A stretch of DNA of 64,000 nt. It comes from Salaquimonas sp. (GTDB lineage Bacteria > Pseudomonadota > Alphaproteobacteria > Rhizobiales > Rhizobiaceae). The translations under genes were made by a program, and so were the position numbers. Below, piece by piece: positions 22,940 through 39,268 of the stretch (its first letter is position 1; every line of letters begins with the position of its first letter). The notes under the pieces are model-generated. The model worked only from the letters and a program-made list of their open reading frames with translations, was not told where the DNA came from and did no database searches. The stretch spans positions 1 through 64,000 of the forward strand of contig JANQQM010000026.1 in NCBI GenBank assembly GCA_028289365.1, given 5' to 3'.

Positions 22940-25618
22940 TTACTCTGCTGCGATGTGACGATTTGCATTGATGATATCCCTGATTTCAGCGCGGCATGAG
23001 CCGCAGTTGGTGCCGGCATTCAGACACTTTCCGACCGTCTCGACACTCGTAGCCTGGCCGGAGCGTATAATCTGGCTGACTTGATTGGCTCCTATATTGA
23101 AGCAGGAACATATGATCGGGCCGGGATCGACCCTATCGGCTCCTGGCCTGCCGGCGATCACATGAAAACGTGAGCGGATGTCGGGAAAGGCTTGCGCCAA
23201 TTGGGCGATGGCAGCTTCGCGCGAAATCGCAACCGGGCAGTCGGCTGTGAATACCGCGGCGAGGAGGCGGTTACCTTCAAAGAAAGCGGTGCGAATCTGG
23301 CCCGCCGACTGATCGACGTAAATGATGGGGTCGATTTTTTCAGATATGCTGGAAAGTGTCCGGGCAAACGCGATCGCATCATCCGGCTTTTCAGTCAGCG
23401 CAAATTCCATTCGCCATCCAGAACCTGATTTCGCCAGCGCCCAGTATTGGCAAGGTTCCAGAGACGGCTTGCGTGCCGTAACTGCAAAGCCATAGATTTT
23501 TGCTTCATATGGCTCGACGGTGACCGGCACCTTCTTCGATGCAGGCTGGCCGGAAACCGGATCCGTGACGGGCGGGATCAGGCGATTGACCCGTGATGAA
23601 GCTGCAAACTGGTCATTCCAATGCATCGGAACGAATATTGCACCGCGCTGCTGTCGCTGGGTGATCAGGGCCCGGACCAGAATTGATTTGCCACGCGACT
23701 TGATCCGAATGATGGTGGAATCCTCAACACCAATCCTGTCGGCATCTAAGGGGTGCAGTTCCGCATAGGGTTCTGCCATATGGGCCGATAGTTTCGGGCT
23801 GCGGCCGGTGCGTGTCATCGTATGCCAGTGGTCGCGTACGCGCCCGGTATTTAGAATCAGCACATTTACATTGCTTGATGTAGCCTGTTGTGCCGGTGCT
23901 TCGATTGGGACTGCGTTCGCCTTGCCATTTGGCGTGAAGAAGCCGCCATTGGCAAAAAAACGTTTTTGGCAGGTGTCATTGGATTTCGTTGTTAACGGCC
24001 ACTGACAGGGGTTCATAGCGTCATATCGGTCATCTGTAATTTCGGCCATGGAGCCTATGTCGAAGCCTCTGGAGCCGTCATTTTCGTAACCGGAAAGCCT
24101 GGCGTGTTCGCGAAAAATATCAACCGGTGACTGCCAATCGAAGGCTTCCACAAATCCCATTTTTTTCGCAACTTGCGAAATGATCCACCAGTCCGGTTTT
24201 GAGCTTCCGGGCATGGGAAGGAAGGGCTTCTGCCTGGAAATGCATCGTTCAGAGTTGGTAACAGTTCCGTCCTTCTCACCCCATCCTGCAGCGGGCAGGG
24301 TCACGTTGGCATGGCGAACGGTGTCAGTGTTGTGCACGATGTCGGACACGACAACAAACGGGCATGTCTTCAATGCGGTCTCGACCAGGTCCCCATCAGG
24401 AATGCTGTCGACCGGGTTGGTCGCCATGATCCAGAGTGCTTTTATCTTGCCGTCAGCGATTGCCTGAAACATGTCGACTGCTTTCAGGCCCGCTTTACCG
24501 GCGATGGTCGGCGATTGCCAGAATTGCTGGACCAGCTTTCGATGATCAGGATTTTCAACTGCCATGTGGGCGGCCAGCATGTTTGCCAGGCCGCCCACTT
24601 CGCGCCCACCCATGGCGTTTGGCTGGCCGGTAATCGAGAAGGGTCCCGTGCCACGCCTGCCAATCCGCCCGGTCGCCAGATGGCAATTGATGATTGCATT
24701 GACCTTGTCGGTGCCGACGGCAGATTGGTTCACGCCCTGGCTGTAGACGGTCACGGTCTTGTCGGTCTTGGCGAATAGTTCAAAGAAAGCGGAAAGCTGC
24801 GAAACCAGAATTCCCGTCTGGCGGGCGGTGTTATCGAGGCTGATTTTACGAGCCGCTTCGAGCGCGTTACCCATGCCATCGACGTGTTGGCCAATATATG
24901 TCTCGTCCAGCGCATCATTCTTATCCAGATGGCTCAGGAGGCCGAGGAACAGCGCGACATCCCCGTCCGGTTGAATCGGCAAATGCATATTGGCGAAATC
25001 GGCCGTCATCGTCCGCCGCGGATCGATACAGACGATTTTCATATGCGGGCGGGATTCTTTGGCTGCAACAATCCGTTGATACAGGACCGGATGACACCAG
25101 GCGAGATTGGAGCCAACAAGCACAAGCAGATCAGCCCTTTCCAGATCTTCATAGACTGCAGGGACGATATCGGCGCCGAATGCCCGGCGATGGCCGGCCA
25201 CGCTCGATGCCATGCACAGCCTGGAGTTCGTATCGATGTTTGCCGAGCCGATGAATCCCTTCATAAGCTTGTTGGCTGCGTAATAGTCTTCGGTGAGCAG
25301 TTGCCCGGAAACATAAAAGGCTACGCTGTCGGGTCCATGTTCCTCAATTGACGCCTGAAACCGATCAGCCACAAGACCAAGCGCAGTATCCCAATCGGTT
25401 CGTTCGCCTTCGATTGTCGGATGAAGCAATCTGCCATCTTCGCCGAGCGTCTCTGCCAAGGCAGACCCCTTCGAGCACAAACGGCCAAAATTGGCTGGAT
25501 GATCCGGATCGCCCTTGATTGAAACGGTGCCGTCTTTGTCACGCGTGGCGATGATGCCGCAGCCTACGCCACAATAGGGGCATGTCGTTTTTGTGGAGGT
25601 TGGCAGGTGATCAGCCAT
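22940..25618 (-). CDS. nasA: Assimilatory nitrate reductase catalytic subunit with C-terminal BFD domain
   Basis: The 892-residue cytoplasmic enzyme reduces nitrate to nitrite. Residues 10-50 carry the [4Fe-4S] ligands Cys13, Cys16, Cys20 and Cys48. The Mo-bis-MGD domains follow (VGSNLAWCHP near 172, QGVNQSAVGTDKVNAI near 293, a MopB_CT domain from about 590). The last 60 residues form a BFD-like [2Fe-2S] domain (ICSCFNIG, then CLNAGTNCGSC), as in NasA/NasC proteins that take electrons from a flavoprotein partner. No separate NasB-type electron donor is in the window. It is the last gene of the operon and overlaps nirD by 8 bp. Confidence 0.95.
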   Translation of the reverse strand: MADHLPTSTKTTCPYCGVGCGIIATRDKDGTVSIKGDPDHPANFGRLCSKGSALAETLGEDGRLLHPTIEGERTDWDTALGLVADRFQASIEEHGPDSVAFYVSGQLLTEDYYAANKLMKGFIGSANIDTNSRLCMASSVAGHRRAFGADIVPAVYEDLERADLLVLVGSNLAWCHPVLYQRIVAAKESRPHMKIVCIDPRRTMTADFANMHLPIQPDGDVALFLGLLSHLDKNDALDETYIGQHVDGMGNALEAARKISLDNTARQTGILVSQLSAFFELFAKTDKTVTVYSQGVNQSAVGTDKVNAIINCHLATGRIGRRGTGPFSITGQPNAMGGREVGGLANMLAAHMAVENPDHRKLVQQFWQSPTIAGKAGLKAVDMFQAIADGKIKALWIMATNPVDSIPDGDLVETALKTCPFVVVSDIVHNTDTVRHANVTLPAAGWGEKDGTVTNSERCISRQKPFLPMPGSSKPDWWIISQVAKKMGFVEAFDWQSPVDIFREHARLSGYENDGSRGFDIGSMAEITDDRYDAMNPCQWPLTTKSNDTCQKRFFANGGFFTPNGKANAVPIEAPAQQATSSNVNVLILNTGRVRDHWHTMTRTGRSPKLSAHMAEPYAELHPLDADRIGVEDSTIIRIKSRGKSILVRALITQRQQRGAIFVPMHWNDQFAASSRVNRLIPPVTDPVSGQPASKKVPVTVEPYEAKIYGFAVTARKPSLEPCQYWALAKSGSGWRMEFALTEKPDDAIAFARTLSSISEKIDPIIYVDQSAGQIRTAFFEGNRLLAAVFTADCPVAISREAAIAQLAQAFPDIRSRFHVIAGRPGADRVDPGPIICSCFNIGANQVSQIIRSGQATSVETVGKCLNAGTNCGSCRAEIRDIINANRHIAAE

Positions 25619-25958
25619 CGCTCGTAGGCTTCATCGGGTCAACGGATAGGAGCAGCCGGTCGCCCTCCAGTCGAACGGGGTAGACGGCGGTGCGGCCCTT
25701 GTCGGCGCCCGTCGCTTCTCCGGTCTCCAGCGAGATGATCCAGTTATGCAGAGGACAGGTCACACAGCCATCGTGGACAATCCCCTGGCTCAGCGGGCCG
25801 TTCCTGTGGGGACATTTGTCTTCGAGCGCATAGATCTGATCGTCGACCGTACGGAAAATGGCGATGGTGAGGTCGTTATAGCGTACGCATCGAGCCCCCC
25901 TGACGGGAATGTCGGAAAGCGTACCGATATCAATCCAGCTTTGGGTGAGGGCGTTCAT
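25611..25958 (-). CDS. nirD: Nitrite reductase small subunit (Rieske type)
   Basis: This 115-residue subunit of the NADH nitrite reductase retains an intact Rieske motif: CPHRNGPLSQG near 48-58 and CPLHNW near 67-72, the Cys-X-His and Cys-X2-His ligands of a [2Fe-2S] cluster. Some enterobacterial NirD proteins have lost these ligands, so this one should be electron-active. It overlaps nirB by 4 bp and nasA by 8 bp, which indicates tight co-expression. Confidence 0.93.
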   Translation of the reverse strand: MNALTQSWIDIGTLSDIPVRGARCVRYNDLTIAIFRTVDDQIYALEDKCPHRNGPLSQGIVHDGCVTCPLHNWIISLETGEATGADKGRTAVYPVRLEGDRLLLSVDPMKPTSDG

Positions 25959-28405
25959 TGTGCCGGCTCCATCGCAACCGTCGCCAGCGGCTTGAACTCG
26001 TGCTTTTCCTTTCCGGAAGCGCGTTCCGACCAGGGGTCGTGCTGCGCAAATTTCTGCGAGAAGACAAAGCGGTCGAAATACTGTTTCCGCTTATCGGCGT
26101 CGTCCAATATTTGGCGGCGTACCTCGTCGTAACCGATGCGCTTGGCCCATTTGTAGATGCGTTCCAGATAATGCCCTTGCTCGCGATACATTTGCACAAG
26201 CGCCACGATATGTTCGAGTGCGTCGTCTTCCGTTTTGACCACGCCGAGAACTTCAGTTCCCTTGATGTCCAGACCGGCAGCGCCGGCGAAGTGAATTTCG
26301 AAACCGGAATCCACGCAGACGACGCCGACATCCTTGCAGGTCGCTTCGGCGCAATTGCGCGGGCAACCGGAGACCGCCATCTTGACTTTCGCGGGTGTCC
26401 AGGAGCCCCACATGAACTTTTCGATACGAACGCCAAGCCCGGTGGAATCCTGTGTGCCAAAGCGGCACCAATCGGTGCCAACACAGGTTTTGACGGTTCG
26501 GAGACCTTTCGCGTAGGCGTGTCCGGACACAAACCCGACCTTGCCGAGATCGGCCCAGACTGCCGGCAGATCGTCTTTCCTGATACCCAGCATATCGATA
26601 CGCTGCCCGCCGGTTACCTTCACTGTGGGAATGTCAAACTTGTCGACGACATCGGCAATTGCGCGCAATTCCTCTGCGCTTGTCTGTCCGCCCCACATGC
26701 GCGGTACGACAGAATAGGTTCCGTCTTTCTGGATATTGGCGTGTGCGCGTTCGTTGATGAACCGAGACTGGTAATCATCGGCATATTCATCGGGCCAATC
26801 GCTCACCAGGTAATAGTTCAGGGCAGGGCGGCATTTTGCGCAGCCGCAGGAGGTCTTCCATTCAAGCTCCTGCATGACGGCCGGGATGGATTTCAGTTTC
26901 CGGGATTTTATCAGCCGGCGCACTTCGTCATGGCCAAGATCGGTGCAGCCGCACATAGGCTGCACTGCTGCCGGATTGTAATCATCCCCCAGCGTGAGCG
27001 CCATGATCTGTTCGACCAGGCCGGTGCAGGTTCCGCAGGACGACGATGCCTTGGTATGGGCTCGAACATCATCGAGGGTGGTCAAATCGTGTTCTTTGAT
27101 CTTCCCCACGATCTGAGCCTTGCAAATGCCGTTGCAGCCGCAGATTTCTGCATCATCTGGCAAGGCTGCAACGGCCAAGGAGGGGTCCACGGAACTAGCC
27201 CCTTGATAAGCCTGACCAAAGATCAGTGTTTCGCGCATTTGGGTGATGTCGGTCTGTTTCTTCACGAGATCGAAGAACCACGGTCCATCTGCAGTCTCTC
27301 CGTACAGGACCGCGCCGATGATCCGGTTGTCCTTTAGAACCAGACGCTTGTAGATTCCGGCAGCGCCATCACGCAGGACGATTTCCTCGCGGTCGTCAGC
27401 CTCGGCGAAATCGCCGGCGGAATAGAGATCAATGCCGGTTACCTTGAGCTTGGTCGCGGTCACGGATCCTGTATATTCGCTCTCCTTTCCAAGCAATTGA
27501 TCAGAAATAACTTTTGCCATTTCATATAACGGGGCTACCAATCCGTAGCACTGGTCCCGATGCTCGACACATTCGCCAAGCGCAAAAATGTCAGGATCGG
27601 AAGTTCGCATGTCATCGCCAACCAGGATTCCTCGATTGACGTCCAATCCGCAGAGCTTGGCCAATTCGCTTGAGGGTCTGATTCCGACTGCCATCACGAT
27701 GATGCTGGCGTGCAGTTCGGTTCCGTCGTCGAGCTTGATACCCGTGACCTTGCCATTGGCGCCCAGGATCTCCTGCGAGTTTGCCTTGGTGATTACCGTC
27801 ACGCCAAGTTCCTCGAATGCCTTTTCCAGGAGATAGCCGGCAGCCGTATCGAGTTGGCGCTCCATCAGCGTGGGCATGAGATGCAGAACGGTGACATCCA
27901 TGCCTTGCGCTTTCAAACCGGCAGCAGCTTCCAGGCCCAGCAATCCGCCGCCAATCACAACCGCCTTTCCACCGTCACGTGCCGCAAGCAGCATGTTGTC
28001 GACGTCATCAAGGTCGCGGTAGGTCAGGACACCATCAAGATCCTTGCCTGGCAGGGGAATGATAAAGGGTGACGAACCGGTGGCGATGACCAGCCGGTCA
28101 TAAGGCTGTGTCACGCCCGATTCAGCGGTTACCGTTTTCCCGGCACGGTCAATTTCGGTGACCTTGCAGGCCTTGTGCAATGTTATGCCGTGGGCGGCAT
28201 ACCAGTCATCGTCATGGGTGATGATGTCCTCATAAGTTTTCTCGCCGGAGAGGACGGGTGACAGCATCAACCGGTTATAGTTGACCCGGGGTTCTGCATT
28301 GAAGATGGTTATATCATAGCGGTGGGGATCGGCCTCGAGCAGATATTCGAGCATCCTTCCCGGCGCCATACCATTGCCAATGATGACGAGATTTTCCTTG
28401 TTCAT
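25955..28405 (-). CDS. nirB: NADH-dependent nitrite reductase large subunit
   Basis: The 816-residue protein reduces nitrite to ammonium with NADH. In order it has: an FAD/NAD oxidoreductase half (VIIGNGMAPGRMLEYL at the N-terminus, VIGGGLLGLEAAAGL near 147), a BFD-type [2Fe-2S] pair (CGCNGICKAQ near 417 and CGTCTG near 450; a second CGCTDLG/CGCAKC set follows), and a sulphite/nitrite reductase half with siroheme-[4Fe-4S] ligands in TCVGTDWCRFG near 635 and SGCPRNCAE near 677. ATG 28405 is favoured over an upstream GTG (28414) because GGAG sits 7-8 bases before it. It lies 5 bases after the ABC gene stop. Confidence 0.95.
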   Translation of the reverse strand: MNKENLVIIGNGMAPGRMLEYLLEADPHRYDITIFNAEPRVNYNRLMLSPVLSGEKTYEDIITHDDDWYAAHGITLHKACKVTEIDRAGKTVTAESGVTQPYDRLVIATGSSPFIIPLPGKDLDGVLTYRDLDDVDNMLLAARDGGKAVVIGGGLLGLEAAAGLKAQGMDVTVLHLMPTLMERQLDTAAGYLLEKAFEELGVTVITKANSQEILGANGKVTGIKLDDGTELHASIIVMAVGIRPSSELAKLCGLDVNRGILVGDDMRTSDPDIFALGECVEHRDQCYGLVAPLYEMAKVISDQLLGKESEYTGSVTATKLKVTGIDLYSAGDFAEADDREEIVLRDGAAGIYKRLVLKDNRIIGAVLYGETADGPWFFDLVKKQTDITQMRETLIFGQAYQGASSVDPSLAVAALPDDAEICGCNGICKAQIVGKIKEHDLTTLDDVRAHTKASSSCGTCTGLVEQIMALTLGDDYNPAAVQPMCGCTDLGHDEVRRLIKSRKLKSIPAVMQELEWKTSCGCAKCRPALNYYLVSDWPDEYADDYQSRFINERAHANIQKDGTYSVVPRMWGGQTSAEELRAIADVVDKFDIPTVKVTGGQRIDMLGIRKDDLPAVWADLGKVGFVSGHAYAKGLRTVKTCVGTDWCRFGTQDSTGLGVRIEKFMWGSWTPAKVKMAVSGCPRNCAEATCKDVGVVCVDSGFEIHFAGAAGLDIKGTEVLGVVKTEDDALEHIVALVQMYREQGHYLERIYKWAKRIGYDEVRRQILDDADKRKQYFDRFVFSQKFAQHDPWSERASGKEKHEFKPLATVAMEPAQ

Positions 28406-28410
28406 CGCTT

Positions 28411-30165
28411 TCACTCCGCAGCCTCGATACGTTCAGCGGATGTCTGTCGCTCAATGCGAGCCTCGCGCCTGCTGGTAATCGATTTGAGCTGTTCTTCGGT
28501 CGGGTTGGCCCCACCTTCATAGGCTTCCAGGAACTCCAGAAGTTCTTCGCGGTAGGCGTAGTAATCCGGATGGGCGAGCAGCGCCTTGCGGGATCGCGGA
28601 CGCGGCAGATCGACTTCCATGATGTTGCCGATCCGGGCACGCGGGCCATTCGACATCATGACGACGCGGTCGGCCAGCAGAATTGCCTCATCAACATCAT
28701 GGGTAACGCAGATCGCGGTTACCTTGGTCCGTTTCCAGACGTCCATGAGAACATCCTGAAGTTCCCACCGGGTAAGTGAGTCCAGCATGCCGAATGGCTC
28801 GTCCAGCAAAAGCAGTTTCGGTGACAGGGCGAAAGCGCGGGCAATGCCGACCCTTTGCTTCATCCCGTTTGAAAGATCCACGGCTGCCTTGTGCATGGCA
28901 TCGCCCAGGCCAACTTCGGACAGGTAATATTCTATGACATCCCGGCGTTCGCTCTTCGCGGCATCGGGATAGACCTTGTCGACGCCAAGCTCGACATTCT
29001 CATAAGCGGTCAGCCAGGGCATCAGGGAAGGCGACTGGAAGACAACCGCACGGTCGGGGCCTGCATCGGTGATGTGTTTTCCGTCAAGCACGATGGCGCC
29101 GCTGGAGATATTGTTGAGGCCTGCCGCCATGGAAAGGACGGTGGATTTTCCGCAACCGGAATGGCCGATTAGCGTGATGAATTCGCCCTTGTCGATTTTC
29201 GTGTCAAAATCTTCAACGACGGTGAGCGGTCCTTTCGGGGTCGGATAAATTTTTGTCAGTTCGCTGAATTGCAGATAACTTTCGTCCTTCACCGTTTTGG
29301 CTGCGTCCTTGTAAGCCTTGGGCAGCACCGTCTTCTGGGTGATCGGGATGACATCAGGCAGCACGATTTCCCGATCGGCCTTGATTGTCCGCTCGGCACC
29401 GACCTTCATCAGAAATTCGGTGATTTCAGCTCGCAGGCGGATAAATTCCTGATCGCTGTTCATGTGGGTGCGGTCACGCGGCCTCGGGATCGTGACGTTG
29501 AATTCCGGACCGAGCGTGGCGTTCGGACCGGGTTTCAACGGAATGATCCGGTCCGCGAGGAGAATTGCCTCGTCCACGTCGTTTGTGATCAGGATGATGG
29601 TTTTTTTCTCGCGCGCGGAGATATCAGCGAATTCATCCTGAAGTTTCGATCGGGTCAGGGCATCCAGCGCCGATAGCGGCTCATCGAGAAGCAGGACATC
29701 GGGCCGCATCGCAAGCGCGCGGGCGACTGCAACCCGCTGGCGCATACCACCAGACAGTTCGGCTGGCTTGCGGTCTTTCGCCGGGGTGAGACCAACCATG
29801 TCGATATAGGTGTCTGCGATTTGCTGGCGCTCGCTTCGTGTCTTGTCCTTGAAGACGCTGTCGACTGCCATCAGCACATTGCCGGTGACCGAAAGCCAGG
29901 GCATCAGGGAATAGGACTGAAACACCACGCCGCGTTCCGGGCCGGGGCCGTCAATCTCCTTGCCACGGAAAATGACGCCGCCTTCATCGGGTTCGATCAG
30001 ACCGGCAAGTGCTGAAATCAGTGTGGTCTTGCCGGAACCGGAAAATCCGACAATGGCAATGAATTCTCCTTCCCCGATTTTCAGGTTGACGTCCTTCAGC
30101 ACGTCTGTTCGGCTGGCGCCAGTGCCAAAGTGTTTGGACATGTTTGAGATTTCCAGAATGGTCAT
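28411..30165 (-). CDS. Nitrate ABC transporter ATPase, two ABC domains fused
   Basis: The 584-residue protein contains two complete ABC domains. Domain 1: Walker [10 protein letters not shown] near 41, signature [14 protein letters not shown] near 140, Walker [13 protein letters not shown]. Domain 2 from about 305: GHSGCGKST near 343, [14 protein letters not shown] near 438, [12 protein letters not shown]. In cyanobacteria the two ATPases are separate (NrtC with a sensor domain, and NrtD). Here they are joined by a linker of about 70 residues, and neither has the NrtA-like regulatory tail, so nitrate inhibition through NrtC is not expected. ATG 30165 has AAGGACAG upstream; longer in-frame starts overlap nrtB. 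Confidence 0.9.
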
Positions 30166-30175
30166 CGCTCTGTCC

Positions 30176-31264
30176 TTACCGTGTCGCCGAGAAGGTAAAG
30201 GCGCGCTGCAGGGCATACATGATGCGATCCAGCATGAAGCCGATCAACCCGATGGTGAGGACCGCGACCATGATCTTGGCAAGCGACTGCGAGGAGCCGT
30301 TCTGGAATTCATCCCAGACGAATTTTCCAAGGCCCGGATTCTGAGCCAGCATTTCCGCGGCGATCAACACCATCCAGCCTACGCCCAGGGACAGGCGTAA
30401 TCCGGTAAAGATCAGGGGCAGGGAGGAGGGCAGCACCAGTTTTGTAATCGTCTTGCGGGTGGGCAGCTGGAGGACGCGGCCTACATTCATCAGGTCCTTG
30501 TCGACGGATGCCACACCCAGGGTCGTGTTGATCAGTGTTGGCCACATGGAGCAGAGGGTCACCGTGACGGCCGAGATCAGTAGCGATTTCGGTAACCAGG
30601 AGGCTGGATCAACGTAAAGTGCGGACACAATCATGGTAACGATCGGCAGCCAGGCCAAAGGCGAGACCGGCTTGAAAATCTGAATAAGCGGATTGATCGC
30701 GCCGTTGAAGGTTTTCGACAATCCTGATGCAATCCCTAGCGGAACCGCAATGATGGTCGCGATCAGAAATCCGAGACCAACGGTGACAAGCGAGGTGAAG
30801 ATTTGGTCGAGATAGGTGGGCTTACCGGTATATTTGCGCCATTTGATCCGGTCGGTTTTGCCTTCTGCCTCGAGTTTGGCATTTCTCACGTCCTGACGTT
30901 CGTAGAATGCTGCAGCCTTGGCCCGCTCGGTCTTGTGGTCATCCCACAAATTGATTGCCTGTTCCCAGACCTGAACCGGTCCCGGGATGGCGCCCAGTGA
31001 AGTCTGAACTCGTGGTGCCAGGACGCCCCAGGCCAACAGGAAAATGCAGATGCCGACTAGCGGGATGATCAATACACGTTGCAGTTCGCCGAACTGCTCC
31101 CTTGGATTGTCGCCTGCTGCAATTTTCAACAGTGGAACCAGCCAGGAAAACCCCAAGGCGTCGAGCCAGCCGGAAGCCTTGTTGATCCGCGCAAATCGAC
31201 GCTCTCTTCGGATTTCACGATCGGGGTTCTGGTGATCGGAAAGTGAACCGGCGGAATTCGCCAT
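30176..31264 (-). CDS. nrtB: Nitrate ABC transporter permease
   Basis: The 362-residue permease starts at ATG 31264 (AAGGA 9 bases upstream). A hydrophilic N-terminus of about 70 residues and a charged insert (about 105-165) precede the binding-protein-dependent permease domain with the EAA loop near 275 ([31 protein letters not shown] is spread over about 258-288). The domain matches the NrtB/TauC/SsuC family. The nrtA-nrtB-nrtCD gene order supports nitrate or nitrite uptake. The spacing to the ATPase gene is 10 bp. Confidence 0.92.
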
Positions 31265-31336
31265 TATCTTTATCCTTCTGGAAGTGGGAAATTTGGAATG
31301 TTGGATGGCCGCTGGTGCGGCCACCCTGATCGGGTG

Positions 31337-32740
31337 CTATCCACCCACAACATTGTTGCCATCGACGACCTGATTGCTCTTCAGGCCGATCGAAAGTGAA
31401 TCGATGTAGGCGTTGGGTTTGCGTCCGTCATAGGGGATGCCGTCGATGATGTCGGCAGCAGGGGTCGGGTCCTTGTAGCCATCGGTATCCCAGGGGAAGT
31501 CGGCTTCGGCGACATGGCCTTCCTCGACCAGCATCTTTGCGGCCTGGAGATAGATGTCGGGGCGGTAAACCGACTTTGCGACTTCGTCATACCAACTATC
31601 GGGTTTGTGGTCCGAGATTTGGCCCCAACGGCGCATCTGCGTCAGGTACCAGACAGCGTCGGAATAAAAGGGATAGGTGGCATAGTAGCGGTAGAAGACG
31701 TTGAAGTCCGGCACGTCGCGCTTGTCGCCCTTTTCATATTCGAAGGTGCCGGTCATCGAGTTGGCGATGACTTCGGCATCGGCGCCGACATATTCCGAGC
31801 GGGCCAGGATTTCGACCGCTTCCATCCGGTTGGCGTTGTCGTTTTCATCAAGCCACTTGGCCGCACGGATCAGCGCCTTGGTGACAGCTAGCGTAGTGTT
31901 GGGATTTTCCTCGGTGAATTCCTTGGTAAGTCCGAACACCTTTTCCGGATTGTTTTTCCAGATTTCGTAATCGGTGATCACCGGCACGCCGATTCCCTTG
32001 AACACGGCCTGCTGGTTCCAGGGTTCGCCGACGCAGTAGCCATAGATGGTTCCTGCTTCCAGGGTTGCCGGCATTTGTGGCGGTGGGGTCACTGACAGGA
32101 GCGCATCGGCCTGAATCTGACCGGAAATGTCGGTCGGGGAATAAAATCCCGGATGGATATCACCCGAGGCAAGCCAGTAACGCAGTTCGTAATTGTGGGT
32201 GGAGACGGGGAAGACCATGCCCATATTGAAGGGCTTGCCTTCGTCGATGAACTTGTCAACAACAGGTTTGAGTGCATCTGCCTTGATCGGATGAACGGGT
32301 TTGCCATTTTCATGGGGAATGTTGGGTTTCATCATTTCCCAGATCTCGTTGGAAACCGTGATGCCGTTGCCGTTCAGGTCCATGGAAAACGGTGTAACGA
32401 TGTGAGCCTGGGTGCCGAAGCCAATCGTGGCGGCGAGGGGCTGGCCGGCCAGCATGTGGGCGCCGTCGAGCTCGCCGGTGATCACCCGGTCCAGCAAGAC
32501 TTTCCAGTTGGCCTGGGGTTCCAGCGTGACGAACAGGCCCTCATCCTCGAAGTAGCCCTTCTCATAGGCAACGGCCAGCGGTGCCATGTCGGTGAGCTTG
32601 ATAAAACCGAACTTCAGTTCGTCCTTCTCGACATCCAGCATCTCTGCGCCTGCGGACGGTGCGAAAATCAGGAGACTGGCGGAAAGGCCTGCGGCCAATA
32701 GGGTGCGGCGGGTCATTGATTGTGATCGTTTAAAGGTCAT
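31337..32740 (-). CDS. nrtA: Nitrate-binding protein of ABC transporter
   Basis: The 467-residue protein starts at ATG 32740 after GGAGAAG. The N-terminus has a twin-arginine-type signal ([11 protein letters not shown] near 8-18, cleavage after AGA near 32), so it is probably exported by Tat. The mature protein matches NrtA/Cmp[21 protein letters not shown] near 42, [13 protein letters not shown] near 86, [13 protein letters not shown] near 232. It captures nitrate in the periplasm. It is the first gene of a six-gene transcript whose 5' leader carries the ANTAR element and terminator. Confidence 0.94.
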
Positions 32741-32785: not shown

Positions 32786-32850
32786 AAAAAAAATCCGCCA
32801 GTCAGGGAACATTCCGAATAAGAATCGGAAGAATGCTCCTGATCTGGCGG
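32786..32850 (-). terminator. Leader intrinsic terminator (attenuator) of the nitrate operon
   Basis: On the minus strand, CCGCCAG (32850-32844) pairs with CTGGCGG (32801-32795). After a single bulged A, the stem continues with TCAGG/CCTGA and GGAGCATTC/GAATGTTCC (one G-T wobble). Eight T residues (32793-32786) follow one A. This is a long, strong factor-independent terminator ending about 45 bases before the nrtA start codon. Its 5' arm overlaps the second ANTAR hairpin, so the two structures exclude each other. Confidence 0.9.
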
Positions 32851-32879
32851 CAGTGCCTGATGTGCCCAGCTTTGGACAC
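32843..32879 (-). promoter_or_regulatory. ANTAR-type two-hairpin antiterminator element (NasT target)
   Basis: Hairpin 1 (32879-32862): stem GTGTCC/GGGCAC, hexaloop AAAGCT. Hairpin 2 (32860-32843): TCAGGC/GCCAGA with one A-A mismatch, hexaloop ACTGCC. Both loops are six bases long with A at position 1 and G at position 4, the defining features of RNAs bound by ANTAR proteins. Hairpin 2 shares bases with the 5' arm of the downstream terminator. NasT, an ANTAR protein, is encoded next to this operon. Binding should stabilise hairpin 2 and let transcription continue into nrtA. The linker between hairpins is a single base. Confidence 0.85.
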
Positions 32880-32957: not shown

Positions 32958-33041
32958 TTGTTTTGATTAGATTCTCTAATATAAATCAATAAAAACAGGT
33001 AGTTAGTATTGCTGCCTGCAAATTGATCAGCTGCCTAATTT

Positions 33042-33081: not shown

Positions 33082-34314
33082 TCAGCGTATTTTCGATGGA
33101 TTTTGTTGCGATGCAATATATTCATTGATTCGGTCAGGATCGAAAATCTTGCCGTCAAAGAAGCCGTCCGGTCCCAGGGTGAGGCGTCCGGCCGAAACAC
33201 CGACCGGATTTTCCCGGGGCAATGCACCTTCCACTTTTGAATTTGCACCGGGAATAGCGGCACCGATTGACATCAGCGCGTTGCGATAAAGATCCGGTCG
33301 GTAGGCGTTGCGCGCGATTTCGGTATTTTTTTGTGAGTGTGTGACCAGCCCCCATCGCACCATTTGGGAATAGAACCAAAGCGCATGGCTTTGCCACGGA
33401 AAGGTTGCTGCGCGGGCAAACGGGACAAAGAAGTCCTCGATCTGGATCGACATATCTCCGCCAATGGAGAGGTTACCTTCAACTGCTCGCATCATGATAT
33501 CGGGCGATAGATCCAGATAGGATTTATCCGCCAGGATGGATGCCAGTTCCTCCAGGTTTTCCCTGTCGGCGCACCATTGCGCTGCCGCATGCAATGCCCG
33601 GATCAGTTTCGCCAGAACCTCGGATTCATCAACGGCCCAATCTGCACGGACGCCCAGCACCTTTTCAGGACTTGAGCGCCAGATCGATGCCTTGGTTGTA
33701 ACGATATCGCCGACGCCATTCGCCACGGCGACGCTGTTCCAGGGCTCCCCGACGCAATATCCATCTATCCGTCCGGTAGACAGTGCATCGGCCATCAGGG
33801 TAGGGGGGATGATGATGATGTCGATGTCCCTGTCGGGATCGATGCCGCAGCCGGCCAGCCAATAGCGCAATTCAAGATTATGCCCGGAATGGGGGTGCAC
33901 CACCGCAAATACCAGACGGTTTTGCCGCAACGCCAATCTGTCTGCAATTACCTTTCGAAGCGCTTTTCCCGCAGAAACCGGATCCAGCCCACGTTCCAAG
34001 CCCGCCTCGGCCATTGCCTGCCAAAGCGAATTGGAGACGGTAACCGCGTTGCCGCCCAATCCGAGGGCGAAGGGTGCTATTATCTGAAGTTCCAGTGGCG
34101 TTATCCCAAGATTGGAAGCGATTGGCATGGGTGCCAGCATGTGGGCTACTTCAAAATGGCCTACTGCCATCCGATCGCGGATATTTGCCCAGGATGTTTC
34201 CCTTACAAGGTTCAGATCAATATCTTCATCCGCAGCAAAACCCTTTTCCCTGGCAGTGACCAGAATTGCGCTGTCGAGTAGGGGGATAAAGCCGGCTGTG
34301 ATGCGTGTTTTCAT
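33082..34314 (-). CDS. nasS: Cytoplasmic nitrate sensor protein NasS
   Basis: The 410-residue protein is an NrtA/CmpA-like binding protein with no signal peptide: the fold begins at once with TAGFIPLLDSAILVTAREKG, and shows FEVAHMLAPMPIASNLG near 59-75 and [18 protein letters not shown] near 202-219. A leaderless relative of NrtA beside nasT is the mark of NasS, which holds NasT inactive until nitrate or nitrite binds. ATG 34314 has GAGG upstream; two alternative starts at 34329 (ATG) and 34332 (TTG) overlap nasT slightly more. The gene overlaps or abuts nasT, so the two are co-translated. Confidence 0.9.
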   Translation of the reverse strand: MKTRITAGFIPLLDSAILVTAREKGFAADEDIDLNLVRETSWANIRDRMAVGHFEVAHMLAPMPIASNLGITPLELQIIAPFALGLGGNAVTVSNSLWQAMAEAGLERGLDPVSAGKALRKVIADRLALRQNRLVFAVVHPHSGHNLELRYWLAGCGIDPDRDIDIIIIPPTLMADALSTGRIDGYCVGEPWNSVAVANGVGDIVTTKASIWRSSPEKVLGVRADWAVDESEVLAKLIRALHAAAQWCADRENLEELASILADKSYLDLSPDIMMRAVEGNLSIGGDMSIQIEDFFVPFARAATFPWQSHALWFYSQMVRWGLVTHSQKNTEIARNAYRPDLYRNALMSIGAAIPGANSKVEGALPRENPVGVSAGRLTLGPDGFFDGKIFDPDRINEYIASQQNPSKIR

Positions 34315-34321
34315 CGGAACC

Positions 34322-34924
34322 TCATTCATCAAGCAGACCGGCTGCGGTTATCAGGCTTTGGGCGATGTCGAGCAGTTTCCGGTTTTGGTTCATCGCCGAC
34401 CGGCGTAGCCTGGCATAGGCCTCTTCCTCAGAGATGCCCTTTGACTGCATGAGAATGCCCTTGGCCCTTTCGATGGTTTTCCTGCCCTCGAGTTCGCTGC
34501 GGGCCGTCTCCAATTCCTGCTGGAGGCGCGCATAGGCATGAAACCGCGTAACTGCCATGTCGAGGATCGGTTTGACCCGTTCCTTTCGCAAACCATCGAC
34601 AACATAGGCTGAAACGCCGGCGTCAATCGCCGCCTCGATGGAAGCCTGATCGGATCGATCGACAAACAGGGCAATCGGTCGGCGTACGGCGCGCGAGACC
34701 TGGAAGACATTTTCAAGCATGTCGCGGTTGGGGTTTTCCAGATCGATGACAATGACATCCGGCGCGATGTCTGCGATCTGCCGGGCAATTCCTGTCGTAT
34801 CGTTTACAATTGTGACTTTGCTGTGCCCGGCGTCGCGCAGACCGGCTTCAATGATTGAAGCTCTGACCGGGTCTTCGTCAACGACCAATACCGAAAGCTC
34901 TGCACGGGAAGATTCAACGGGCAT
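34322..34924 (-). CDS. nasT: Nitrate-responsive ANTAR antiterminator NasT
   Basis: The 200-residue protein has an N-terminal receiver-like domain (VLVVDEDPVRASI near 11-23, DVIVIDLENP near 58-67) and a C-terminal ANTAR RNA-binding domain (ERAKGILMQSKGISEEEAYARLRR, about 155-178). NasT releases attenuation of nitrate genes when NasS lets it go. ATG 34924 is chosen over a TTG 39 bases upstream. The terminator/two-hairpin structure in front of nrtA, 1.5 kb away, is its expected target. An NtrC-like site lies just upstream of the gene. Confidence 0.92.
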   Translation of the reverse strand: MPVESSRAELSVLVVDEDPVRASIIEAGLRDAGHSKVTIVNDTTGIARQIADIAPDVIVIDLENPNRDMLENVFQVSRAVRRPIALFVDRSDQASIEAAIDAGVSAYVVDGLRKERVKPILDMAVTRFHAYARLQQELETARSELEGRKTIERAKGILMQSKGISEEEAYARLRRSAMNQNRKLLDIAQSLITAAGLLDE

Positions 34925-34940
34925 GCCTATATATTGCGCG

Positions 34941-34957
34941 TGCGAAATAATTGTGCA
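34941..34957. promoter_or_regulatory. Second, weaker NtrC-like site upstream of nasT
   Basis: The minus-strand sequence TGCAC-AATTATT-TCGCA matches one NtrC half-site perfectly and the other at three of five bases. It lies 17-33 bases before the nasT ATG, too close to be a normal enhancer, so it could act as a repression or autoregulation site. It is also in the gap shared with crtY. Confidence 0.45.
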
Positions 34958-35123
34958 ATGCAAAAAAATGAATTTTGTACAGGCGTTAATGAGAAGCAGA
35001 TAGGCTCAGACTAACTAATCCGAAAATTCCGGTACGGTATTGAATTTCTTTTCCAGGAATTGGCCTTTGCCGATTTCAGCGCTATGTCTTGCCAAGATTG
35101 GAACAAGAAGAAACCGGGTTCAC

Positions 35124-36305
35124 ATGCATTCCCCTGATGCCGATATCATTTTCGCAGGTGGCGGGCTTGCCAGCTGTCTGACGGCGCTGCGAATAGCTGA
35201 GGCGTTTCCAGATAAGTCGATCCTGATCGTTGAGGCTGGAGACAAGCTTTGCGGCAATCATACCTGGTCGTTTCATCTGACCGATCTGAATGCCGATGAA
35301 CTTAAGCTGGTAGAACCGATGATTGCCTATCATTGGCCGGGTCAGCAGGTGATCTTTCCAGATTTCAATCGAAAGCTGAGCACCGGCTATGCCAGCCTTA
35401 CTTCTGAATCCGTCAGAAGCCATGTGAAAAGAACGAAGAACATCACTTCCAAGGAGAAGAGTGCTATCTCAGAAGTGTGCGAGGCCTCGGTGGCGCTTGA
35501 GGATGGTCAAGTAATCGAAGCGCCCTGCATTATAGACGGCAGGGGGTTTCGTCCTGATGAAGCGCTAATTCTCGGATTTCAGAAGTTTATCGGCCTGGAA
35601 CTTGAGTTGAGGGAGCCGCATGGCGAAGCCGTTCCGACGATCATGGACGCATCTGTAGAGCAGTTTGACGGATACCGGTTTGTGTACACCTTGCCCTTTG
35701 ATGAGCAAACCGTGCTGATTGAAGACACAAGATACAGCGATCATTCAAGTCTGGATGAAAAATCTATCGTTGCGGACATCAAGGACTATGCCCGGTCAAA
35801 AGGGTGGAAGATCAAGAAGGTCGTTCGGCAGGAAAATGGGGTGCTGCCGATTACGCTTGGCCATGATTTTGAGCGTTTTTGGCGTAACCGCCCGGCCGGG
35901 ATTGCGCCCATTGGGCTTCGGGCAGCGCTGTTCCATCCCACCACCGGTTATAGTCTGCCCAATTCGGTTAAGCTTGCGGATAAGATTGCTGCGATGCAGG
36001 GAACAATGACGACCGGTGCAGTCAGAGATTTGGTCGAAGCCCATGCCCGCCAATTGTCGCGCCGGCAATCCTTCTACCGATTTCTCAATCGAATGTTGTT
36101 CAAGGCGGCAGAGCCCGGTCTTCGCTGGAAAGTGCTTTCGCGCTTTTATAAGTTGTCTCAAGGTCTTATCGAGAGATTTTACTCCGAAAATCTAACCTTT
36201 GCCGACCGATCCCGGATCCTGATTGGCAAACCACCGGTACCGGTCTCTGCGGCGATCAATTGTATCAGCGAGAAGTCGGTCTTCCAGAAAACTGAATTGG
36301 CGTAG
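35124..36305 (+). CDS. crtY: Lycopene beta-cyclase
   Basis: The 393-residue flavoprotein-like cyclase converts lycopene to beta-carotene. It begins with DADIIFAGGGLASCLTALRI (FAD/NAD motif, residues 5-24), then GNHTWSFHLTD near 52-62, a strong CrtY mark, and the C-terminal FYRFLNRMLF region near 322. ATG 35124 gives the usual family length, although the ribosome site is weak. It heads the crtY-crtI-crtB operon and is divergent from nasT. Confidence 0.93.
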   Translation: MHSPDADIIFAGGGLASCLTALRIAEAFPDKSILIVEAGDKLCGNHTWSFHLTDLNADELKLVEPMIAYHWPGQQVIFPDFNRKLSTGYASLTSESVRSHVKRTKNITSKEKSAISEVCEASVALEDGQVIEAPCIIDGRGFRPDEALILGFQKFIGLELELREPHGEAVPTIMDASVEQFDGYRFVYTLPFDEQTVLIEDTRYSDHSSLDEKSIVADIKDYARSKGWKIKKVVRQENGVLPITLGHDFERFWRNRPAGIAPIGLRAALFHPTTGYSLPNSVKLADKIAAMQGTMTTGAVRDLVEAHARQLSRRQSFYRFLNRMLFKAAEPGLRWKVLSRFYKLSQGLIERFYSENLTFADRSRILIGKPPVPVSAAINCISEKSVFQKTELA

Positions 36306-36309
36306 AATT

Positions 36310-37794
36310 TTGGCAAATTATGATGCGATCGTGGTCGGAGCGGGCTTTGGTGGATTGGCGTTGGCTATCCGTCTGCAAAGTGCCGGGAAGAAGACCCTCC
36401 TTATCGAAAAGCGCGACAAACCTGGCGGCCGCGCCTATGTCTATGAACAGGACGGGTACAAATTCGATGCCGGCCCGACCGTCATAACCGACCCTGCCGC
36501 GCTCGAAGAACTGTGGGCGCTTTCCGGTCGGAAATTGTCCGAATATGTGACGCTGATGCCGGTGGATCCATTTTACCGTCTGATGTGGGAAGACGGATCA
36601 ATACTCGACTATAGCGATGATCAGAAGAAGATGGATGCGCAAATTTCTGATTTTGCGCCTGCAGATGTCGATGGGTATCGGAGATTTCTAGCCTATTCGC
36701 AGGATTTGTATCACGAGGGTTATGAAAAGCTTGGCGCAGTGCCGTTTCTGCACTTTCGCCAGATGATCATGGCCGCCCCGCAACTGGTGCGCCTCCAAAG
36801 CTATCGATCCGTATACTCAAAGGTCGCCTCGTTTATCTCCGACGACAAGCTGAGACAGGCCTTTTCTTTCCATTCGCTTCTGGTTGGCGGAAATCCGTTC
36901 ACGGCATCTGCTATCTACGCACTAATTCACGCGCTTGAGCGCAAGGGTGGTGTCTGGTTTGCAAAAGGGGGTACAGGGGCCCTGGTAGACGGAATGGTGC
37001 GGCTTTTTGAAGATATGGGTGGGGAAACAATACTGGGAACGAGCGTTTCGAAGTTTCTGACCGATGGAGATCGGATCAGGGGCGTGGAAGCGGGCGGCAA
37101 GACTTACATGAGCGACAGTGTGGCGAGTAATGCCGACATCGTACACAATTATGAGCGTCTATTGGGCGAAACCGCCCACGGTTCTGCTGTCGCGGATCGC
37201 ATGAAGCGGTATAGCTATTCCATGTCGCTCTTTGTCATCTATTTTGGCCTGAAAGGCGGACCCGAAGATTTGAAGCACCACGTGGTCTTGTTCGGAAACC
37301 GGTATCGCGAACTGATCTCCGAGATTTTCAGCGGGCCGGACTTGCCAGAGGATTTTTCGCTCTATCTGCATTGTCCGACTGTTTCGGATGACAGTCTCGC
37401 GCCGGAAGGGTGCAGCGCCTATTACGTCCTATCGCCGGTACCGCATCTGGGTAATGCGGCGATTGACTGGGAGACTGCGGGTCCGATCTATCGCGACAAA
37501 ATTCTCGCCTATCTGGAAAAGCAGTGCATACCGAATTTGAGCGAGCGGCTGGTAACCAGCAGGATATTCACGCCGAGCGATTTCCAGACCGAACTGAATT
37601 CACATCTGGGGTCCGCATTCTCGGTTGAACCACGACTCACGCAATCTGCCTGGTTCAGACCGCATAATCAGGACAGCAAGTTCAAGAACCTGTTCTTTGT
37701 TGGTGCCGGCACCCATCCCGGTGCCGGGATTCCGGGTGTTGTTGCCTCGGCCAAAGCCACTGCCAGCATCATGTTGCAGGATGAGCCGGCATGA
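36310..37794 (+). CDS. crtI: Phytoene desaturase
   Basis: The 494-residue product starts at TTG 36310, four bases after the crtY stop, because the FAD motif (DAIVVGAGFGGLALAIRLQ, residues 5-23) begins at once and no ATG is available. A second flavin-contacting region near the C-terminus (FVGAGTHPGAGIPGVVASAKA at about 463-483) is typical of CrtI. The enzyme takes phytoene through four desaturations to lycopene. There is no clear Shine-Dalgarno, so translation probably depends on crtY coupling. It overlaps crtB by 4 bp. Confidence 0.93.
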   Translation: MANYDAIVVGAGFGGLALAIRLQSAGKKTLLIEKRDKPGGRAYVYEQDGYKFDAGPTVITDPAALEELWALSGRKLSEYVTLMPVDPFYRLMWEDGSILDYSDDQKKMDAQISDFAPADVDGYRRFLAYSQDLYHEGYEKLGAVPFLHFRQMIMAAPQLVRLQSYRSVYSKVASFISDDKLRQAFSFHSLLVGGNPFTASAIYALIHALERKGGVWFAKGGTGALVDGMVRLFEDMGGETILGTSVSKFLTDGDRIRGVEAGGKTYMSDSVASNADIVHNYERLLGETAHGSAVADRMKRYSYSMSLFVIYFGLKGGPEDLKHHVVLFGNRYRELISEIFSGPDLPEDFSLYLHCPTVSDDSLAPEGCSAYYVLSPVPHLGNAAIDWETAGPIYRDKILAYLEKQCIPNLSERLVTSRIFTPSDFQTELNSHLGSAFSVEPRLTQSAWFRPHNQDSKFKNLFFVGAGTHPGAGIPGVVASAKATASIMLQDEPA

Positions 37795-38744
37795 CCGATG
37801 CGACGCAATCCATCGATCACCTTGTTGCGGTCAGCGAAGAATCGATCGCCAAGGGGTCCAAGAGCTTTGCGCTTGCCTCAAAGCTATTACCCGCGGAAAT
37901 GCGGCGCGACGTCGTTATGCTGTATGCCTGGTGCCGTTATGCAGATGACGTGATTGATGGTCAGGTGGCCGGGTTCAAGCCTGCCGAGAGAGAGCAATCA
38001 AGTGAAGCAGAACGGTTGCGAGACCTGGAAGACCGTACCCGTAATGCACTTGCAGGCAAGCCGGACGATGATCCGGTGTTTCTGGCGCTCAGCCATATTG
38101 CAAAGAAGAACAAATTCGATCATCGGCACCCGCTCGAGCTCATCGATGGCTTCAGAATGGATGTCGAGGGACGCCAATACCGGAAGTTGTCGGACACACT
38201 GGACTATTGCTATCACGTCGCCGGAGTAGTCGGTGTAATGATGGCCGGCCTGATGGGGGTACAAAAGGAAGACGCACTCGACAGGGCCAGCGATTTGGGC
38301 ATCGCTTTTCAGCTGACGAACATATCGCGGGATATATTCGATGACGCGGCGATTGGCCGGGTCTACCTGCCTTCCGAATGGCTGGAAAAGTTTGACCTGG
38401 ATGGCGCAAATCTCGGGGATTCCGAGAAGCGCCAGACCATCTACCAAATGGCGCTGTTATTGCTGGAGGAGGCGGATAAATATTATGCCTCCGCGCGGTT
38501 TGGTTATTCCGCATTACCCTTGCGTGCGCGTTGGTCGATTGCGTCCGCCGCTAGGATTTACCGCGAGATCGGCGTCATCATCAGGCATTCCGGTCCAGAT
38601 GTCTGGCAGAAGCGCATATCGACCTCCACGTCGAAAAAGCTGATGCTTGTTCTGTTGGCGTTGTGGGATTCACTTTTTCCGGCAGGGCAGGCGCCGGGCC
38701 AAAAGCGCGTCGGTCTATATCAACGTCCAATTGCGGCCGAGTGA
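37791..38744 (+). CDS. crtB: Phytoene synthase
   Basis: The 317-residue enzyme joins two geranylgeranyl diphosphates into phytoene. Both Mg-binding aspartate motifs are visible: YADDVID at 50-56 and NISRDIFDDA at about 176-185. SKSFALASKLLP near 23-34 is the squalene/phytoene synthase N-terminal mark. The ATG overlaps the crtI stop by 4 bp. It ends 5 bp from the convergent crtZ gene, with no room for a separate terminator. Confidence 0.95.
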   Translation: MTDATQSIDHLVAVSEESIAKGSKSFALASKLLPAEMRRDVVMLYAWCRYADDVIDGQVAGFKPAEREQSSEAERLRDLEDRTRNALAGKPDDDPVFLALSHIAKKNKFDHRHPLELIDGFRMDVEGRQYRKLSDTLDYCYHVAGVVGVMMAGLMGVQKEDALDRASDLGIAFQLTNISRDIFDDAAIGRVYLPSEWLEKFDLDGANLGDSEKRQTIYQMALLLLEEADKYYASARFGYSALPLRARWSIASAARIYREIGVIIRHSGPDVWQKRISTSTSKKLMLVLLALWDSLFPAGQAPGQKRVGLYQRPIAAE

Positions 38745-38749
38745 CACTC

Positions 38750-39268
38750 TCATTTTGAGAGCGCGTCTTCTTCGGACTCATACATTTCAAGCTTCAGTTC
38801 GGCCTGGTTCTCCCGCAGCTCGCGTTTCAAATTGTCGATCTGCGGTGCCCATAGAAAACCAAAAGAGACACAGCCATCCCGGCCTTTTACCGCGTGGTGG
38901 AGTCGGTGGGCCTGATAGATCCGTTTTGCATATCCGCTTTTTGGGACTACCCGGAAAGGCCAGCGCTGGTGGACGAGCCCGTCATGGGCAACAAAATACA
39001 ACAGCCCGTACAGGGTCATTCCGATCGCAATCCACCAAAGCGGATCGTAGTAATTTGCGCCCAGGTAAAAAAGCACGATCGAGATGCCGGCAAAGACGAC
39101 TGCAAACAGATCATTCTTCTCAAAGCTGTCCTTGTGAGGCACGTGGTGAGATTTGTGCCAGCCCCAGGCCCAGCCATGCATGATGTATTTGTGGGTAAAC
39201 CAGGCCACAAATTCCATGAACATGACTGTCCCGATAATCAGGACGGCAGGTATCAGTACGTTGCTCAA
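38750..39268 (-). CDS. crtZ: Beta-carotene hydroxylase
   Basis: The 172-residue membrane di-iron enzyme has all four histidine clusters of CrtZ: HKYIMHG near 26-32, HKSHHVPHKD near 38-47, HDGLVHQRW near 95-103, and HRLHHAVKG near 121-129. It hydroxylates both rings of beta-carotene to give zeaxanthin. The start is TTG 39268 with GGGA about 8 bases upstream; the next ATG would remove the first membrane helix. It lies 92 bp downstream of the ABC permease on the same strand, and is probably the last gene of the crtE operon. Confidence 0.93.
   Translation of the reverse strand: MSNVLIPAVLIIGTVMFMEFVAWFTHKYIMHGWAWGWHKSHHVPHKDSFEKNDLFAVVFAGISIVLFYLGANYYDPLWWIAIGMTLYGLLYFVAHDGLVHQRWPFRVVPKSGYAKRIYQAHRLHHAVKGRDGCVSFGFLWAPQIDNLKRELRENQAELKLEMYESEEDALSK

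Follow-up and report, generated by a model that had tools for sequence, protein, structure and literature searches.

The window, i.e., the whole 64,000-nucleotide stretch of DNA analyzed here, carries on its minus strand a regulatory gene pair, nasT and nasS, separated by a gap of ~340 nt from genes for nitrate transport and reduction. The sequence-only reading had placed in the gap an ANTAR antiterminator of the NasT type that overlaps an intrinsic terminator. This proposal is sustained by conservation in orthologous loci, covariation of paired bases, linkage of the element to NasT, and the finding of a single ANTAR protein in the genome, and because of this combined evidence we regard it as highly probable that the region is a leader in which NasS and NasT control transcription antitermination in response to nitrate.

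The nitrate-assimilation locus

The minus-strand gene order comprises nasT, nasS, the gap, nrtA, nrtB, a gene encoding an NrtC/D protein with two ATPase domains, nirB, nirD, and the assimilatory nitrate reductase gene. As expected of a NasS–NasT system, the nasT product (34325–34963; 213 aa, with a TTG start as listed) combines a REC-like receiver domain (Pfam: PF00072, 32.1 bits) with an ANTAR RNA-binding domain (Pfam: PF03861, 75.7 bits), and the neighboring nasS (33085–34332), whose start overlaps the end of nasT, encodes an NrtA-like nitrate/nitrite sensor protein of the NMT1_2 family (Pfam: PF13379, 237.8 bits) that is distinct from the transporter component NrtA. These assignments agree with the earlier statement that NasT and NasS are encoded next door to the leader, and every nasT locus read also had a NasS relative beside it. 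The first gene past the leader is nrtA (31340–32740; PF13379, 317.4 bits), encoding the substrate-binding protein of a nitrate ABC transporter, with its ATG at 32740 and a GGAG immediately 5' to it. It is followed by the ABC permease gene nrtB (30179–31324; PF00528), the nrtC/D-type gene (28414–30216; PF00005 in two stretches), genes for the nirB-type large subunit of NAD(P)H nitrite reductase (25958–28414; PF07992, PF01077, and PF04324) and the nirD-type Rieske small subunit (25614–25958; PF13806), and a nasA/narB-type gene for assimilatory nitrate reductase (22943–25618; PF00384, PF01568, PF04879, and PF04324), all on the minus strand.

The window NrtA is 83–88% identical to proteins of Mesorhizobium camelthorni, a Kiloniellaceae bacterium, and Denitrobaculum (L036, L058, and L080), and in other Mesorhizobium the protein at the nrtA place is only ~32% identical to it; this disparity suggests that the transporter operon may have been transferred or swapped behind a conserved nasTS unit. 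On its other side, nasT adjoins a carotenoid-type gene cluster lying mostly on the opposite strand (35040–39268), which by the look of its sequences includes a lycopene cyclase, phytoene desaturase and synthase, and a hydroxylase.

Hairpins and terminator of the leader

Folding of the 106-nt leader with RNAfold gave −42.7 kcal/mol against a mean of −24.45 for shuffled sequences (z −5.3), with 0 of 200 shuffles equaling it. Two adjacent minus-strand hairpins, as originally described, were recovered from both sequence and fold: P1 (32862–32879; GTGTCC-AAAGCT-GGGCAC) and P2, the conserved core of which (32846–32857; GGC-ACTGCC-GCC) is defined by the sequence, the alignment of relatives, and the covariance model. 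Both hexaloops, AAAGCT and ACTGCC, have A at position 1 and G at position 4, as in ANTAR-target RNAs. Both are also closed by a C-G pair, another reported feature of such targets (PMC7496416), which is present in 31 of 31 aligned leaders. A truncated 49-nt piece, without the 3' arm of the terminator, folds into both hairpins. Upstream of P1 stands an extra hairpin, P0 (32883–32912 on the minus strand; AATTG..GGTCG-TTAATT-CGGCC..CAATT), with −9.8 kcal/mol in RNAfold for 32916–32881. A hairpin at the P0 place occurs in all 76 leaders compared below, with little sequence conservation, and in four of them (L067, L078, L096, and L108) this hairpin likewise bears an A1/G4 hexaloop, so that these leaders may contain three ANTAR-type hairpins each.

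As first drawn, P2 extended over 32842–32861 (ATC-A-GGC-ACTGCC-GCC-A-GAT), and its outer ATC/GAT pairs, its A-A mismatch, and a 1-nt linker had been taken to make the element a compact version of the known design. Comparison with relatives does not support this view: the outer pairs, and hence the mismatch within the stem, are peculiar to the window, the conserved P2 stem has 3 bp (GGC/GCC, then a mismatch, in relatives), and the distance of 19 nt from loop to loop is the family norm, being found in 65 of the 74 leaders with a located P2, window included. The gap from P1 measures 4 nt to the conserved core, within the 2–25 nt of linker reported for curated ANTAR-target RNAs (PMC8164766), and 1 nt if the non-conserved outer pairs are counted. 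A 3-bp P2 also fits the binding mode of EutV, which contacts no more of a stem than the three pairs that close the loop (PMC8934654). At loop positions other than 1 and 4, the window departs from what is usual for each hairpin: the commonest P2 loop, AAAGCT (56 of 74 leaders, e.g., L048, L067, and L078), sits on P1 in the window, and ACTGCC was seen once.

Downstream of P1, the intrinsic terminator forms a long stem-loop (32795–32850, minus strand; −32.6 kcal/mol and z −6.4 in RNAfold for 32856–32785), separated by a single A from a T8 tract (32786–32793) that ends ~45 nt before the nrtA start codon. The 3' half of the second hairpin does serve as the terminator's 5' arm, as had been claimed; together with this arm the terminator reuses the last two P2 loop bases, which makes the two structures mutually exclusive, a property expected of ANTAR targets. 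The P2 3' arm lies within the terminator in 76 of 76 folded leaders, window included, and the terminator fold is favored over a forced P2 by ~11 kcal/mol in the window and by 12.7 on average over the 76, so that termination is expected of the RNA when no protein is bound. In 72 of these leaders the whole P2 hexaloop is paired within the terminator stem (only two of its bases in the window); the hexaloop would thus be constrained by both NasT recognition and the terminator.

Conservation of the element and its linkage to NasT

Conservation of the hexaloops in orthologous leaders, on which the sequence-only reading had staked its case, was borne out when public genomes were searched with the window NasT as query. 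The 80 orthologous nasT–nasS loci retrieved were mostly from Mesorhizobium, and also from Chelatococcus, Kaistia, Aminobacter, Hyphomicrobium, Kiloniellaceae, and Denitrobaculum. In 76 of them, the P1 place downstream of nasS is occupied by a hairpin whose loop reads A..G.., a count that is partly by construction, as the locator pattern itself demanded A1 and G4. One of the 76 (L111) had no clean T run, and the later counts refer to the remaining 75 relatives plus the window. In the four loci where no P1 was located (L035, L039, L063, and L099), the sequence examined contained no nrtA-like gene shortly downstream of nasS. One relative (L090) has G in place of A at P2 loop position 1.

Covariance models were built from 25 or 30 relatives, with the window excluded, for the two hairpins (R1, P1 plus P2) and for the leader with its terminator (R2). 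Within the 64 kb, R1 ranked the window site first with 27.7 bits (E 1.4e-4; runner-up 13.0), a score below those of the best relatives (up to ~56), and R2 likewise ranked it first with 45.8 bits (E 2.2e-8; runner-up 12.9). Since models that had left the window out rank this site first, its occurrence is not due to chance. A scan of the leader against Rfam 15 yielded no family at gathering score, and under a permissive threshold just two snoRNA matches appeared, far below the cut-off and with E above 1; as no Rfam 15 model covers the element, the purpose-built model was used in place of the Rfam ANTAR model.

In an alignment of 31 leaders, ten pairs were 100% standard, and three P1 pairs had changed on both sides, a covariation score that 0 of 500 shuffles reached. 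The window itself contributes a compensatory change in P1, with U-A where 30 relatives have C-G, so that orthologous leaders display the compensatory conservation expected of an ANTAR-target RNA. Also in P1, the U-G pair at the third position from the loop is retained by 30 of the 31 leaders.

The hairpin pair also follows the protein across genomes. Among 61 genomes sampled from the order, 60 besides the one that holds the window, R1 matches at E<1e-3 were present in 16 of the 26 other genomes with a NasT orthologue and in 0 of the 34 without one (Fisher p 4e-8), a count not fully independent of the model, as at least one genome (G059, with the same leader as L054) had also fed it. The best match lies 1.3–1.6 kb downstream of nasT in 16 of 16 genomes, and at 1.44 kb in the window. 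Within the window genome, which is 97% complete, NasT is the sole ANTAR protein and the nrtA leader site is the only R1 match at E<0.05. An even sample of the class was scanned under tighter filters, with 23 candidates scored per genome and the window itself missed; it gave matches in 4 of 289 genomes and has little bearing on distribution. Two second matches were set aside, one (L140, in G018) lying inside a long coding frame and the other (G059:C281, L139) being that genome's leader again, at the end of a contig.

The window NasT could be matched by alignment to EutV (6wsh/6ww6), NasR (4akk), and AmiR (1qo0). The EutV residues Tyr164, Arg168, Met172, and Asn173, which have been tied to hexaloop binding (PMC8934654), correspond to Y, R, M, and N in the window protein, and Arg175 and Arg177 are replaced by Asn and Lys. 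In the receiver, Asp is kept at the position of EutV Asp54, and an Asp replaces the usual Lys near the receiver end; we infer that these residues would suit a protein controlled by NasS and not by a kinase. The conserved RNA-contact residues, like the hairpins, the terminator, their mutual exclusivity, the conservation, and the linkage to NasT, are read from sequence.

Proposed control of entry into the operon

By analogy with known systems, we infer that NasT binds the leader, that nitrate acting on NasS sets it free, and that readthrough results. By default, P1 and the terminator hairpin would form in the nascent leader, bringing transcription to a halt at the T8 tract before nrtA. Upon binding of nitrate or nitrite by NasS, NasT would be released, and the free protein would bind both A1/G4 hexaloops, stabilize P2, and thereby remove the 5' arm of the terminator, allowing RNA polymerase to enter the nrtABC–nirBD–nasA operon.

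The structure could instead be a mere terminator of the nasTS transcript, with nrtA served by its own downstream promoter or regulation and the hexaloops coincidental. It does follow nasTS in the same direction, and ~45 nt separate the T8 tract from the nrtA start codon; against this, the hexaloop pair with its fixed spacing and covariation is kept in 76 loci and tracks NasT across genomes, and in most relatives the element stands ~44 nt downstream of a sigma-54 box, so that the transcript crosses it into the operon, all of which renders this explanation very improbable. We assign an equally slim chance to a true ANTAR antiterminator that answers to another ANTAR protein, or to a signal other than NasS and nitrate: the A1/G4 code is common to ANTAR proteins (PMC3369931, PMC7496416) and the RNA by itself does not tell which of them reads it, yet the one ANTAR protein found in this nearly complete genome is encoded 1.4 kb upstream of the element.

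The nitrate-responsive NasS–NasT reading leaves room for two views of the promoter. Among 75 relatives, 73 have a near-consensus sigma-54 −24/−12 box (CTGGCACGGTTCCTGCT or a close variant) ahead of the P1 loop, usually at a distance of 42–46 nt. In the corresponding minus-strand region (32958–32900), the window leader contains no box of the form TGGCAC-N5-TTGC above background by either PSSM or consensus (best site −4.5 bits), and a sigma-70 consensus scan detected no promoter in it, the same simple scan also missing the long terminator. The antiterminator may act together with a degenerate sigma-54/NtrC promoter, as in relatives, giving two layers of nitrogen control on nrtA, an arrangement compatible with NasT antitermination that we hold to be possible at best. 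The boxes of the relatives, the presence of rpoN in the window genome, and a GG-N10-GC at 32958 (ATGGCTATTATTTTGCC), the only one in the leader, point in this direction; however, the 32958 site agrees with the consensus at 8 of 13 positions and scores −9.0 bits, which is background level, as >200 places in the window reach 8/13 or better, and a genome of the same genus (G005) keeps a clear box (L126). An obvious box is also absent in several other genera of the order (L117, L118, L122, L123, and L124). Just as tentatively, we suggest that the leader may have kept NasT antitermination and lost the sigma-54/NtrC promoter, in which case the operon would answer to nitrate mainly at the terminator and would largely escape general nitrogen (ammonium) control here, or would be fed by read-through from nasTS. 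The locus offers a natural case of an antiterminator persisting without the usual sigma-54 box.

The mechanism itself is already known, and this leader adds one more ANTAR/NasT antiterminator of the usual design. Its closest parallel in gene arrangement, nasABGHC of Paracoccus denitrificans (PMC3795266, PMC5424462), likewise has nasT–nasS, a hairpin-bearing leader, and then the assimilation operon, with an ANTAR NasT; in that organism a leader hairpin is required for nitrate induction, the nasA leader RNA is bound by NasT, which nitrate causes NasS to let go (PMC3795266), and mutation of the leader hairpin HI abolishes growth on nitrate (PMC5424462). The window operon, known here from sequence, differs in its nrtABC–nirBD–nasA content with an ABC nitrate transporter. 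The NasT regulon of Bradyrhizobium diazoefficiens (nosR, nirA, and narK-bjgb leaders; PMC6759348) shares NasT-type hairpins in alphaproteobacterial nitrogen-gene leaders, whereas in the window genome a single element was found, beside nasTS and before nrtA, and no other target was seen. With the EutV/eut leaders of Enterococcus faecalis (PMC3369931, PMC8934654), the window shares two A1/G4 hexaloop hairpins, the overlap of P2 with an intrinsic terminator, and conserved ANTAR contact residues; EutV, in contrast, is activated by phosphorylation and eut linkers span 5–12 nt, whereas the partner here is NasS and the gap is 1–4 nt depending on how P2 is drawn. The NasR/nasF leader of Klebsiella oxytoca (PMC7496416) also employs nitrate-controlled ANTAR antitermination of an assimilation operon with the same loop code, but its nitrate sensor and ANTAR domain are fused in one protein.

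In addition to a well-supported NasT target, the analysis provides a covariance model for an alphaproteobacterial ANTAR element undetected by Rfam 15, with its conserved features defined as a P1 of 6–7 bp in which one G-U pair is nearly invariant, a P2 of 3 bp, and a loop-to-loop distance of 19 nt. In one other genome, a further NasT-type element, complete with a sigma-54 box and a terminator of its own, was observed (L138:1501-1539; G041:C23:168852-168890) between an nrtC-like gene and a gene for an MFS (NarK-like) transporter, ~4.6 kb after the first element, and judged by these features it is likely a second NasT target in that genome.
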